Positions 38,537 to 43,717 of a DNA stretch of 64,000 bases are shown here, in pieces (positions within the stretch are counted from its first letter, which is position 1; every line of letters begins with the position of its first letter). The DNA is from Gemmatimonadota bacterium. Lineage in GTDB: Bacteria > Gemmatimonadota > Gemmatimonadetes > Longimicrobiales > Gaopeijiaceae. The translations under genes and the position numbers were made by a program. The stretch is from positions 62,001 to 126,000 of the forward strand of contig JAQBXY010000003.1 in assembly GCA_027623325.1 (NCBI GenBank). Direction: 5' to 3'. The notes under the pieces are model-generated. The model ran no database searches and was not told the DNA's origin. It saw only the letters and a program-made list of their open reading frames with translations.

Positions 38537-41178
38537 AGATCGAGCGCATTCAAATCGGTGCTTTCGGGCGGCTGACAGATCTCGATTCGGGGCCCACACC
38601 CCTCGACTCACTCGTGGTCGTGGTCGGGCCGAACGAAGCGGGAAAGTCGACACTCTTTCGGTTCTTGACCACAGCGCTCTATGGCTTTCACCCGGCGTCT
38701 CGCGATCGGAACCCACACGTCCCGTGGGGTGCTGAGGAGGCCGGCGGCGAAGTTCATCTGAGGTTGGACGGGGGAAGCTGCGCCCGGGCAGAACGCCGCC
38801 TTCGCTCGACAGCGTGGGGCAGGCTCACGGTCGATGGGCATGCTCGAGACCTCCGGAATCAACCCCTCCCCTGGGTCGAGCACATTCCCCGTTCCGTTTT
38901 TCGACAGGTCTTCGCCGTGACACTCGCCGATCTGGCCGGCCTGGACGAGGAAACGTGGGCTCGCATCCAGGATCGTGTGCTCGGGTCGATGGGTGCGGCC
39001 GACCTGCGTCCGGCCCGTGTGGTCGCCGAGACACTCGAAAAGGAAGCCGCCGAGATCTGGCGCCCGTCCCGGCGCGGAAACCAGCGACTTCGCGACCTGC
39101 AGGAAGAAATTCGGGCGCTCAGGGCGCGCCGCACCGGTGCGCTAGAGCGTGATCGCTCGATCCGAGCCCTCATCGGGGAACGCGAGAATCTCGACGTGCG
39201 CCTGGGTGAAATGCGCGGCGAGCGACAACGAGATCGGGTCACGGTGGAGCGCGTGCAGGAATTGCTTCCGCTCAAGAGGCAGGTCGATCGGATCCAGGCT
39301 CTGCGCGTGGAAGGCGGTGAACGAGCAGCACTCCGCGATCTGCCCGACGACCCGAAGGGCCGGCTGGCGAGCCTCGAAGCCGATTCGGAACGGCTGGGGC
39401 GCAAAGTCGCGGCGCTCGACCGTGACCTTGCAGAGCCGATGGAGGTCCAGGCTCGCTTCGATGCCACGGCGAGGTCGATCCTCGCTCGGAGGGATCGGAT
39501 CGCACCCTTCCTGACCCGGGTGGAGAGTCTGGAGCCCGACCGACTGCGGGTGACCGAGCTGAGGAACGAACTCTCCGAACTCGAACACCGCCGGCGGGAC
39601 GCCGTGAATCAGATCTTGTCGGGTCCGTGCGACGAAGCCGTGCAAGGGGCGATCTCCGCGTTGTCCCTGGACCTTTTGAAGGACCGGATCAGCCGGCTCG
39701 GACGACGAGCCGGCGAGCACCCGAGGGCATCGAGGGCCCTCATCGGCTCGTGGAGGCCGGCTGCCCTGTTCGGGGCGCTTGGAGTCGGGTTGGTCGGCTG
39801 GGGTCTCTTCGGCGGCCCGGCCGGCGCGCTGATCGTAGGTGCCGCGTCACTGGCCGTCGGCTCTACCCTGGGACTTCTCCGCCTCCAGACGGCACGCGCG
39901 GCGCCCCCGGACCCCATGACGGAATCGACGGCTACCCTCGGCGGCCTTCAGGCGCAGGTCGTCTCCATGCTCACCGGTATTCCCGTTCGGGAGGAGTACC
40001 TGCAGCCTCCCGGCGACGCCGTGGCATCGGGCCTCGAGCGCATCCAAAGACTGCTCCACGACGAACGAGAGATGACCGGGGCACTTCGACGCGCCTCGGA
40101 ACGGCTCGCCGCATTGGATGTCGCAGCCGCAGAGATCGCCACGGAACTCGGCGAGCACGCACCCGTGGATGCACGGACGCTCTCCCTCCATCTGGATCGA
40201 GCGTTGAGGGAGGCCGAGCGGACTCGGGACGCGGCCGCTAGTGCAGCTCGCGAGCAAGCTAGACTCGGGAGAGAGCGGGAAGCCGTCGTCGCGGAAACGG
40301 CCACCGTACAGGACCTCACCCTGGCGCTCAGGGAACGGCTTGATGCCTTCCGGCAGCCAGCCGATCCAACGGGCCTCGAGACGGCTCAAAGGCGCCTCGA
40401 AGCACACGCCCGGGCAGACCGGATCGAGGAGGAACTAGAGAGGGCCCACTCCACTGTGCGCGACATTCAACAGCGACTCCTGGACGTAGAGCAGCAGGCG
40501 TCCTGGTCCGTGACGGAGGACGAACTCGCACGTACTCGCGTACGAATCGATGAGTACGAGACCGAGATCGAGACGCTCATCGCGCGCACCCAGGCACTCG
40601 ATCGGGATGCCGCCCACCTTCGCGAGATGGAGACCGTTGACGCGGTGGACAGCGAAGTCGCCAGCCTACAGGAGACCGAGAGCCAGCTCGCGTTTGAACG
40701 CGACCGCAAATGGCTACTGGCCCGTCTCGTTCGGGAGGCTGATCGTCGTTTTCGAGAAGAGCACCAGCCCGATCTACTTCGGCGGGCCTCTTCCTATCTC
40801 GAACATCTGACCGGCGGACGGTACGACCGTCTTTTCATCGACGAAGACGGAGACGCAGATCTCTTCCAAATCGTCGGACCAGGGATTCCGGCGCCGATCC
40901 CACTCGCCAGCCCCATCTCGACCGGTACCTTGGAACAGGCCTACTTGAGCCTGCGGCTGGCGATCGTGGATCACCTCGACCAGGGGAACGAGCGTCTTCC
41001 TCTGTTCATCGACGAAGCTTTCGTGAATTGGGATGATGAACGTCGAGATCGGGGACTCGAAGTGCTTGGACGCATTTCCGCATCCCGTCAGGTCTTCGCC
41101 TTCACCTGCCACCCCGAGATGGCCACCCGGCTCGAAGGACTCGGTGGCCGAGTCCTTCGGCTCGATCGGGACTCGTGA
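38533..41178 (+). CDS. YhaN-like (Rad50/SbcC-type) AAA ATPase
   Basis: 881 residues from a GTG overlapping the nuclease stop (GTGA). An N-terminal ATPase half has Walker A GPNEAGKST at about residue 34. Long coiled coils (about 190-330 and 500-730) flank a central hydrophobic hairpin (about 410-450, ALIGSWRPAALFGALGVGLVG onward) that could insert in a membrane. The C-terminal half has a STGTLEQAYLSLRLA signature and the Walker B LPLFIDEAF. It lacks a zinc hook between the coils, as YhaN proteins do. It works with the YhaO-like nuclease; the hydrolase that follows overlaps it too. Confidence 0.9.
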   Translation: MKIERIQIGAFGRLTDLDSGPTPLDSLVVVVGPNEAGKSTLFRFLTTALYGFHPASRDRNPHVPWGAEEAGGEVHLRLDGGSCARAERRLRSTAWGRLTVDGHARDLRNQPLPWVEHIPRSVFRQVFAVTLADLAGLDEETWARIQDRVLGSMGAADLRPARVVAETLEKEAAEIWRPSRRGNQRLRDLQEEIRALRARRTGALERDRSIRALIGERENLDVRLGEMRGERQRDRVTVERVQELLPLKRQVDRIQALRVEGGERAALRDLPDDPKGRLASLEADSERLGRKVAALDRDLAEPMEVQARFDATARSILARRDRIAPFLTRVESLEPDRLRVTELRNELSELEHRRRDAVNQILSGPCDEAVQGAISALSLDLLKDRISRLGRRAGEHPRASRALIGSWRPAALFGALGVGLVGWGLFGGPAGALIVGAASLAVGSTLGLLRLQTARAAPPDPMTESTATLGGLQAQVVSMLTGIPVREEYLQPPGDAVASGLERIQRLLHDEREMTGALRRASERLAALDVAAAEIATELGEHAPVDARTLSLHLDRALREAERTRDAAASAAREQARLGREREAVVAETATVQDLTLALRERLDAFRQPADPTGLETAQRRLEAHARADRIEEELERAHSTVRDIQQRLLDVEQQASWSVTEDELARTRVRIDEYETEIETLIARTQALDRDAAHLREMETVDAVDSEVASLQETESQLAFERDRKWLLARLVREADRRFREEHQPDLLRRASSYLEHLTGGRYDRLFIDEDGDADLFQIVGPGIPAPIPLASPISTGTLEQAYLSLRLAIVDHLDQGNERLPLFIDEAFVNWDDERRDRGLEVLGRISASRQVFAFTCHPEMATRLEGLGGRVLRLDRDS

Positions 41179-42029
41179 CCAGATCTCTACCCCTCTACGT
41201 CTCCGAGGTTGAGGCGTTCGGGGATCGAGCCCCGAAGGGGGCGCCGGGCGAGACCTTCCTGCTCCTCCATGGCTACGGCGGCTCGTCGTTCACCTGGAGA
41301 TTCTGGGCACAGGCACTCGCCGCGAGAGGGCGGGTCATCCTCGTCGACATGAAGGGATTCGGCGAGGCCCCAAAGCCAGATGACGGGCGCTACGGACCGG
41401 AGGAGTTGGCTGCACTTGTCGTCGAGTACCTCGAGCAGCACGACCTGCGTCGACTGACGCTGATCGGCCACTCCCTCGGGGGCGGCGTATCCCTGCTCGC
41501 GACGCTGGCCTTGATGGACCGCGGCAGCGGGCGGATCGAGCGACTCGTCCTGGTCGCCTCAGCGTCGTACCGGCAGCGCTTACCCCCCTTCGTGGCGTTG
41601 GCCCGTTGGCCGAGGCTCAGTGCCGTTCTGCTTCGGATCGTGGGGGCTCGCCGCGTGATACGTCGGGTCCTCCGAGCGATCGTCCACGATCGCAGGTCAG
41701 TCACGGAAGATCAGGTTCGAGCCTACGCCCGTTCGCTCGAGTCAGCCGATGGCGTCCGCGCAGCGCTCGACGCTGGTCGCCAGATCGTGCCGGCGTCGAT
41801 CGACGAGCTGGCCGCACGGTTCCGGGAGATCGACATACCGACACTCGTCTTGTGGGGCCGCCAGGATCGTGTGGTACCCCTCTCGAACGGCCGCCGTCTC
41901 GCGGCCGAGCTCCCCCAGGCCACCCTCACGATTCTCGACGAATGCGGGCACCTGCCTCCCGAGGAGCTACCGGAGGAGTCGCTGGCCGCGCTCGAGAACT
42001 TTCTGGACGATCATCCCTTGGCGGAGTGA
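41175..42029 (+). CDS. Alpha/beta hydrolase
   Basis: 284 residues with the canonical fold. Oxyanion region LLLHGYGGSS, nucleophile Ser100 in GHSLGG, acid in LWGRQDRVVPL and histidine in DECGHLPPEE. No signal peptide. The cap domain is a helical insert around residues 130-200. Substrate is unknown; MhpC-like esterase or C-C hydrolase chemistry is typical. The GTG start overlaps the ATPase stop (GTGA), so it is translationally linked to the YhaO/YhaN pair, though a functional link is not obvious. Its end faces the OsmC-like gene. Confidence 0.88.
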   Translation: MTRSLPLYVSEVEAFGDRAPKGAPGETFLLLHGYGGSSFTWRFWAQALAARGRVILVDMKGFGEAPKPDDGRYGPEELAALVVEYLEQHDLRRLTLIGHSLGGGVSLLATLALMDRGSGRIERLVLVASASYRQRLPPFVALARWPRLSAVLLRIVGARRVIRRVLRAIVHDRRSVTEDQVRAYARSLESADGVRAALDAGRQIVPASIDELAARFREIDIPTLVLWGRQDRVVPLSNGRRLAAELPQATLTILDECGHLPPEELPEESLAALENFLDDHPLAE

Positions 42030-42083: not shown

Positions 42084-42542
42084 CTACGCGAACTCCACCG
42101 ACCAGCTCACCGCCACCGAATCCTTGATCGACTGAGCCGTCGGACACTTGCTCACATGAGTCTCCAAAGCCCGATCGACCTTGTCCTTCGGGGCCTCCGG
42201 GGGTAACCGCAGCGTGTAGTGCACATGGATCTTCGTCAGCAGAATGATCCGGTCCACGACCTCGTTCGTGCCTTCCGCAGTGCAGCTGATGGCATCATTG
42301 GCCATCGGGATCCCGCGCACCTCCAGTGCGCCATTGAGAGTCCCGAGTAGTCAAGCAGCGGCGGCAGCCACCAGGTAGTCGACGGGAAGCGGCAGGTCTG
42401 GCGCCGAATCGAGGCCATAATGTGCCTTGATGGGGCCATGGACTCCGAAGTCGAGAGTTGTGCCATCCTCGAGGGTACCCCGGCGCTGGAGGCCATCGAC
42501 CTTCACTACGCTGGAGCGGGTGATATAGAGCGGATCACTCAT
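42084..42542 (-). CDS. OsmC-like protein with in-frame TGA: probable selenoprotein
   Basis: 152 residues if the TGA at 42353-42351 is read as selenocysteine (position 64). Before it: MSDPLYITRSSVVKVDG ... PVDYLVAAAAA. After it, in the same frame: LLGTLNGALEVRGIPMANDAISC ... CPTAQSIKDSV to a TAG stop at 42084. In OsmC/Ohr proteins this position, at the start of the central helix, is the peroxidatic cysteine; Cys133 (SKCPTAQS) is the second catalytic cysteine and is intact. So Sec64 and Cys133 would form the redox pair that reduces organic peroxides. A SECIS-like hairpin follows the TGA at the right distance. The ATG at 42542 overlaps the upstream small gene's stop (ATGAGTGA), fixing the start. 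The alternative is a TGC/TGT to TGA nonsense change or error. Confidence 0.75.
42306..42345 (-). promoter_or_regulatory. Bacterial SECIS-like hairpin downstream of the OsmC TGA
   Basis: Reading 5' to 3' after TGA, an outer stem CGGGA (bases +6 to +10) pairs with UCCCG (+41 to +45). The inner stem GCGCAC (+20 to +25) pairs perfectly with GUGCGC (+31 to +36), leaving apical loop UGGAG. A G in the first two loop bases and a loop 16-37 bases from the UGA are the known bacterial SECIS requirements, and both are met. The hairpin lies within the coding region, as SelB-dependent elements do. Confidence 0.65.
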
Positions 42543-42792
42543 GACGTTCTTCATCTCCTGAAGTCTCGGTGTCGGACGGTCCCTCCCCGTACTCGGCCCA
42601 GGGGTCAGCCGAGCGTTCATGTCCGGAGCACCGGATCACGGGTAACGGAGGATAGCGCCGGAAGTTAGAGTCGGTACTGGCCAGCTCACAAAGATAGAAG
42701 CGGGAGCCTCTTCGATTTCCGGTGAGCCGGTGATGCACGCAGTCGCCGCACAGCCCTGCGGGATGACCGCGCCCCTCGATGCGCGGGCTCAA
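42535..42792 (-). CDS. Small cysteine-rich protein, 85 residues
   Basis: An uncharacterised small family that I recognise by pattern only: GLCGDCVHHRL, then RGSRFYLCELASTD, then RYPPLPVIRCSG. The two CxxC-like cysteines and two later cysteines suggest a small zinc-binding or redox fold. The best start is a TTG at 42792 overlapping the TGA of the YfiH-type gene (TTGA); no ATG is available. Its stop lies inside the OsmC start (ATGAGTGA). Tight overlaps on both sides make it part of a three-gene operon. The acidic tail (after residue 65) is probably disordered. Confidence 0.65.
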   Translation of the reverse strand: MSPRIEGRGHPAGLCGDCVHHRLTGNRRGSRFYLCELASTDSNFRRYPPLPVIRCSGHERSADPWAEYGEGPSDTETSGDEERHE

Positions 42793-43571
42793 GATCGAAT
42801 CCCCACATACCCGACCTGACGGCCCGCGTCTCCGCCCCGGTGCGAGAATAGCGCGCTGTCCGAGCAACGTGTGCAGTGGGTCGAAACGCTCACTCTTTCG
42901 GCATCGACCCCAAGGGCGACAGCACGCTGGCCGAGAGCGGCGCGCAGGTCGATGGGCGTCGGACGATCCGGAGTCGACTGTCCGAGCGCCTCGAAGACTT
43001 CCGGCCCGACTTCATAACAGTCCCCGCAGATAGACGGGCCGAGATGGATATACACATCGGCCGTATCAGTACCGAACCTGGTGGCCATGGCTTCGATGCT
43101 ACGTTCCAGCACTCCTTCGGCCGCCCCGCGCCACCCCGCATGCACCGCGGCCACGGCCCGCTGGGAAGCGTCCACGACGAACACAGGCACACAGTCCGCG
43201 ATCGTCACGCCGAGCAGGACTCCCGGTTCCCGAGTCATGTGTCCGTCGCATGCGCCGACGATCGAGAGTCCGGTAGCGGTCCCACCATGCACCCGCACCT
43301 CCGAGCCATGCACCTGCCGGGAGTGCATGACGCACGTCGCACCGGTTGCCACCCGGAGCTCTTCCCAGTTGACGAGTACCTCCGCCTCGGCAGTCCCTCC
43401 GCTGAACAGTCCGAGATCGAAGGGACGGCCAGCCCCGCCGCGAGTTGTCGTCCCCTGTACGAGCCACGGGAACTCGTCGAGCCACCCCGGGTGCACGAGC
43501 GCGGGTGGGCGCGCGACGGGGATCTCCCGAATGCGGGCGAATGAGCGGGGCGGTAGGGAGTCAGTGGTCAC
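42789..43571 (-). CDS. pgeF: YfiH/PgeF-type multicopper-like (laccase-domain) protein
   Basis: 260 residues from the GTG at 43571. Family motifs: MHSRQVHGSEV, TIADCVPVFV, AVHAGWRGAAEGVLE and STHCTRCSDSALFSHR. The conserved Cys and His residues bind a metal. Relatives act on purine nucleosides (phosphorylase/adenosine deaminase) or edit peptidoglycan precursors, while older annotations say polyphenol oxidase. The start is uncertain: an in-frame GTG at 43613 is equally weak. It is divergent from the 2-oxoglutarate dehydrogenase gene and heads an operon with the small cysteine-rich gene and the OsmC-like gene. Confidence 0.88.
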   Translation of the reverse strand: MTTDSLPPRSFARIREIPVARPPALVHPGWLDEFPWLVQGTTTRGGAGRPFDLGLFSGGTAEAEVLVNWEELRVATGATCVMHSRQVHGSEVRVHGGTATGLSIVGACDGHMTREPGVLLGVTIADCVPVFVVDASQRAVAAVHAGWRGAAEGVLERSIEAMATRFGTDTADVYIHLGPSICGDCYEVGPEVFEALGQSTPDRPTPIDLRAALGQRAVALGVDAERVSVSTHCTRCSDSALFSHRGGDAGRQVGYVGIRS

Positions 43572-43717
43572 GGACCGTGATGCTACCGACCGGGCCCGCG
43601 CAGACGCAAACACACCCCCGCGGAGGTGCCCGAACCCTCCTGTGGCCGGGGAAGATGCGATAGCTTACCCTCCCCGAGGACGCCATCTATTCTGCCAGGA
43701 GCCTGGGCAACCGGACC

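Follow-up and report, generated by a model that had tools for sequence, protein, structure and literature searches.

An OsmC-like gene of Gemmatimonadota with a conserved in-frame TGA codon is very probably a selenoprotein gene

Introduction

Does the TGA codon that interrupts an OsmC-like gene of a Gemmatimonadota bacterium encode selenocysteine (Sec), and what might the protein do with it? The gene, osmC, lies on the minus strand at positions 42084..42542 of the window (the whole 64,000-nucleotide stretch of DNA that was analysed), from an ATG start codon at 42542-42540 to a TAG stop codon at 42086-42084. An earlier note, based on the letters of the DNA, mentioned that OsmC-like proteins with Sec had been listed in metagenomic surveys. 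This is so: OsmC-like selenoproteins have been on record since 2005 and comprise three Sargasso Sea sequences with the motif UxxT (PMC1088965) and five sequences in the GOS data (PMC2398784), a 2026 inventory also including them (PMC13188914); the subfamily described here is distinct from the curated one. In the open-access literature we found no tie between OsmC-like selenoproteins and Gemmatimonadota, an absence that does not amount to proof. We report here that osmC almost certainly encodes a true selenoprotein belonging to the OsmC/Ohr/YhfA superfamily, as judged from its sequence and conservation.

Results

A TGA codon at the active-site position of an OsmC-like gene

The 152-residue OsmC-family frame has a single interruption, the TGA of codon 64 (42351..42353, minus strand), and is intact on both sides, as the earlier note had it. 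When the TGA is read as Sec, its flanks are PVDYLVAAAAA-U-LLGTLNGALEVRGI. The claim that these residues surround the catalytic cysteine of OsmC proteins was confirmed by alignment: in a profile of the subfamily of osmC (subfamily A) and a related one (subfamily B, see below), the Sec column is aligned with the cysteine of the solved OsmC-family proteins 1ukk, 1ml8, 2opl and 2onf. The second catalytic cysteine proposed in the note, Cys133, is present as well: its TGT codon (42144..42146, minus strand) lies in the context VSKCPTAQSI and is aligned with the CP cysteine of 1ukk, so that alignment and conservation make the cysteine of this KCPTAQS motif a candidate resolving cysteine. The assignment of the gene to subfamily A, with 152 residues including Sec64, relies on the frame, the conservation of the TGA and the score against PF02566 (OsmC), 51.5 bits for a gathering cut-off of 27.5. 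The AlphaFold2 model (pLDDT 95.2) was matched by Foldseek with a probability of 1.00 to the structures of YhfA (1ml8), Ohr and OsmC, the top match by E-value being YhfA 1ml8 with ~22% identity in the structural alignment.

osmC appears to be the final gene of a small operon, in agreement with the tight embedding described in the note, because its start overlaps by 8 nt a small Cys-rich (zinc-ribbon-like) open reading frame (42535..42867, minus strand), itself preceded by a gene at 42789..43613 (minus strand) that is probably pgeF/YfiH-like on the basis of its sequence motifs. The next gene downstream (41175-42029, plus strand) is convergent with osmC. In 14 of 45 related loci (described below), both neighbours could be identified and the order is pgeF-like gene, small Cys-rich frame, osmC, as in the window; in the others the order differs or contig ends intervene.

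Conservation of the TGA codon

Seen alone, a lone TGA in one metagenome-assembled genome (MAG) could be a sequencing error, TGC or TGT having been read as TGA, or the mark of a pseudogene. We therefore consider the codon in relatives. Peptide patterns that excluded the TGA codon were used to scan 84,980 species genomes, a search for close relatives that also covered other phyla. It yielded 45 loci, nearly all labelled Gemmatimonadota, and in these relatives from other genomes, whose identity ranges from 82 down to 54%, the aligned codon is TGA in 45 out of 45 cases, far above chance. A separate search of 298 Gemmatimonadota genomes (E <= 1e-10) identified the osmC selenoprotein gene or a paralogue in 89 genomes, and among the matches listed each has exactly one TGA. 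As the query carried Cys at codon 64, this search would, if anything, have favoured Cys forms. In a control search of the same kind with the NCBIfam model NF041052, dozens of Gemmatimonadota OsmC genes without internal stop were recovered. Because 45 further records share the TGA, a read error at codon 64 is very unlikely, and with the listed phylum matches added this conservation rules out sequencing error and pseudogene; the frame intact on both sides and the hairpin with frozen synonymous sites described below speak against them too, and we regard either as extremely improbable.

Three OsmC genes that seemed to have two TGA codons (in genomes G262, G076 and G111) proved to have one Sec codon and a normal TGA stop. 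We also noted a MAG labelled Deltaproteobacteria in which the Gemmatimonadota-type gene occurs twice (L045, L046), the two encoded proteins being identical; this MAG is likely mis-binned.

The TGA of osmC is read through, as would also be expected if TGA were reassigned genome-wide to Trp, Cys or Gly. However, TGA is the main stop codon in the window, terminating 22 of the 32 long open frames, which excludes such a reassignment; in addition, the genome has the full Sec machinery (see below) and the TGA lies at one functionally defined codon. The probability we attach to reassignment is vanishingly small.

A hairpin downstream of the UGA codon

A hairpin of sequence GCGCACU-GGA-GGUGCGC is located at 42315..42331 (minus strand), with a 7-bp stem that begins 19 nt past the UGA and a GGA loop 26 nt past it. 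The bacterial SECIS model comprises a loop of 3-9 nt opened by a G and a stem of 4-16 bp, at 16-37 nt from the UGA (PMC13188914); the osmC hairpin has every one of these elements. Codon identity at conserved residues in 48 distinct subfamily A genes was compared with that obtained after shuffling synonymous codons within each gene. Over codons 71-77, which coincide exactly with the hairpin, it was 0.96 for an expected 0.39 (sd 0.015; reached in 0 of 500 shuffles); it was partly raised over codons 65-69 and near expectation for most remaining codons. Ala72, for instance, is encoded by GCA in 47 of the 48 genes, GCA being a minor Ala codon elsewhere in these genes. The stem pair 26-34 is A-U in 48/49 subfamily A sequences, whereas 17/20 subfamily B sequences have G-C; in subfamily B the stem partner residue is Ala, not Val, and GCG is used as the Ala codon, making this compensatory change synonymous on one side. 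Judged by its fold, its frozen synonymous sites and this compensatory change, the osmC hairpin is a bacterial SECIS. A search of Rfam gave zero matches within the 64-kb window.

In one lineage of subfamily B (L098, L099 and L107), the stem does not form in the usual register; two of these three loci have an alternative GGGC-GGA-GCCC hairpin just upstream.

Sec machinery and its co-occurrence with the gene

The checks proposed in the note included a search of the genome for selA, selB, selC and selD. All were found: the same genome (3.35 Mb, 60 contigs) encodes selA (534 bits), selB (324 bits) and selD (382 bits), as well as a tRNA-Sec (70.8 bits) with a TCA anticodon. Its SelD is probably itself a selenoprotein: the selD gene (L018, G000:C8:257912-258832) has one in-frame TGA (HGAG-U-ACKL), and a hairpin comes after it.

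At the level of the phylum, SelA is encoded by 221 of the 298 genomes, namely 87 of the 89 with the TGA-containing gene vs 134 of the 209 without it (Fisher p = 1.2e-11, a value that is indicative only because the genomes are related and not independent). The two gene-bearing draft genomes in which a SelA match was not found are G212 (88% complete) and G147 (95% complete, 440 contigs); assembly gaps or something else may account for this, draft gaps being the likely cause.

A UGA codon followed by a stable hairpin can work either way, and the hairpin might instead regulate read-through so that the UGA terminates or tunes translation, a truncated form of 63 residues being the main product. However, the region past the UGA is conserved, with the invariant residues R124, C133 and P134, and the gene co-occurs with SelA; we consider programmed termination highly unlikely. 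Insertion of Sec is the reading that we retain: SelB with Sec-tRNA(Sec), directed by the SECIS hairpin, would place selenocysteine at codon 64, a reading that conservation supports.

Subfamilies and cysteine forms

The same genome carries a second OsmC-type selenoprotein gene, which belongs to subfamily B (L096:2953-3390, i.e., G000:C60:143455-143892) and has its own hairpin, GCGCGC-UGGAG-GCGCGC, and also one OsmC gene without TGA. Elsewhere in Gemmatimonadota a third, YhfA-like clade has Sec in some members (GAUTSMT) and Cys in others (SCMSMT, L136); its TGA forms include L108:943-1380 and L128-L134, and its Cys relatives are L135-L137. At L108, the YhfA-like Sec gene immediately precedes a subfamily B gene, which has a Sec codon as well. 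In the phylogenetic tree, subfamily A forms a single clade (99/97) and subfamily B is weakly supported, and the third Sec clade, with Cys forms mixed in, is distant from both.

No Cys orthologue was found in 25 relatives, picked mostly for absence of the gene and most of them without SelA, and the plasmids searched gave zero matches. Two weak TGA-free matches in these 25 genomes were rejected as Cys orthologues, being other OsmC members instead. Loss of Sec thus seems to have been accompanied by loss of the gene, on the evidence of one phylum and draft genomes.

The active site

Residues invariant in 37 sequences include R20, G33, H35, D55, Sec64, G67, T68, R124, C133 and P134. The two catalytic Cys positions of the Ohr/OsmC peroxidases are thus matched by two invariant residues, Sec64 and Cys133; R20 is only a candidate equivalent of the Ohr Arg. 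The catalytic Glu of Ohr/OsmC proteins, which is located 10 residues before the Cys and assists it (PMC8945050), is replaced by Val54, and by Val, Leu or Ile in relatives, so that hydroperoxide reduction is not assured. The note had called the codon 64 position peroxidatic: its alignment with the catalytic Cys holds, whereas the peroxidatic role is conjectural, given the YhfA-like replacement of Glu by Val54.

Most likely, the osmC product works as a Sec/Cys redox enzyme. In the modelled OsmC fold, Sec64 would sit in the central helix at the usual site of the catalytic Cys; its selenolate would attack a hydroperoxide or another oxidised substrate, the resulting selenenic acid would be resolved by Cys133 to give a selenenyl-sulfide, and this might be reduced by a thiol donor of the lipoyl or thioredoxin type. 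We give slightly better than even chances to organic peroxidase activity. The alternative, which concerns the enzymatic step only, is that the Sec protein is YhfA-like and has a different oxidised substrate (a persulfide, a disulfide or another electrophile). YhfA is the top structural match by E-value and has a non-Glu residue at the Val54 position too; YhfA proteins lack both the Arg and the Glu and are biochemically uncharacterised (PMC8945050). Invariance of Sec64, Cys133 and R20, by contrast, leaves an altered peroxidase site conceivable. We estimate the chance of a non-peroxidase as considerable but short of even.

Discussion

Our data suggest that, on sequence grounds, the Gemmatimonadota gene is a new subfamily of an already known kind, the OsmC-like selenoproteins. 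The Sargasso/GOS form is alike in belonging to PF02566/COG1765, in having Sec at the active-site Cys and in its downstream SECIS, but its published motif, UxxT, sets it apart from U-L-L-G-T here, with Gly at +3, and the accessible parts of its descriptions make no mention of Gemmatimonadota (PMC1088965, PMC2398784, PMC13188914). NF041052 (OsmC_like_Se, OsmC-related (seleno)protein) is likewise an OsmC family model that permits Sec; however, the osmC protein (P0001) scores 33.9 bits vs a cut-off of 95, subfamily B 19.6 to 22.9 bits or no score, and the cut-off was exceeded in 0 of the 298 Gemmatimonadota genomes. E. coli YhfA (1ml8) shares the fold, the two redox positions and the absence of the catalytic Glu, but has Cys where the osmC product has Sec, at ~22% identity. 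Finally, the Ohr/OsmC peroxidases (1ukk, 1qwi, 1n2f) share the fold, the active-site helix and the second cysteine in a CP motif, but have Cys in place of Sec and the catalytic Glu in place of Val54.

A more tentative proposal, which we think possible though rather doubtful, is that subfamilies A and B are obligate selenoproteins, in which Sec is never exchanged for Cys and the genes are lost with the machinery. The selenolate might then offset the missing Glu and enable chemistry beyond that of Cys-based OsmC proteins.

With these results, OsmC-like selenoproteins would no longer be limited to a few sequences from marine metagenomes but would form a set spread across Gemmatimonadota: two subfamilies with Sec only and a third that pairs Cys with Sec forms. 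In these organisms, standard annotation would break the osmC gene in two or cut it short at the TGA. The main interest lies in this phylum-wide and apparently Cys-free distribution in Gemmatimonadota: with subfamilies that appear to be free of Cys forms, whether Sec is capable, in the OsmC fold, of something beyond the reach of Cys becomes a testable question.
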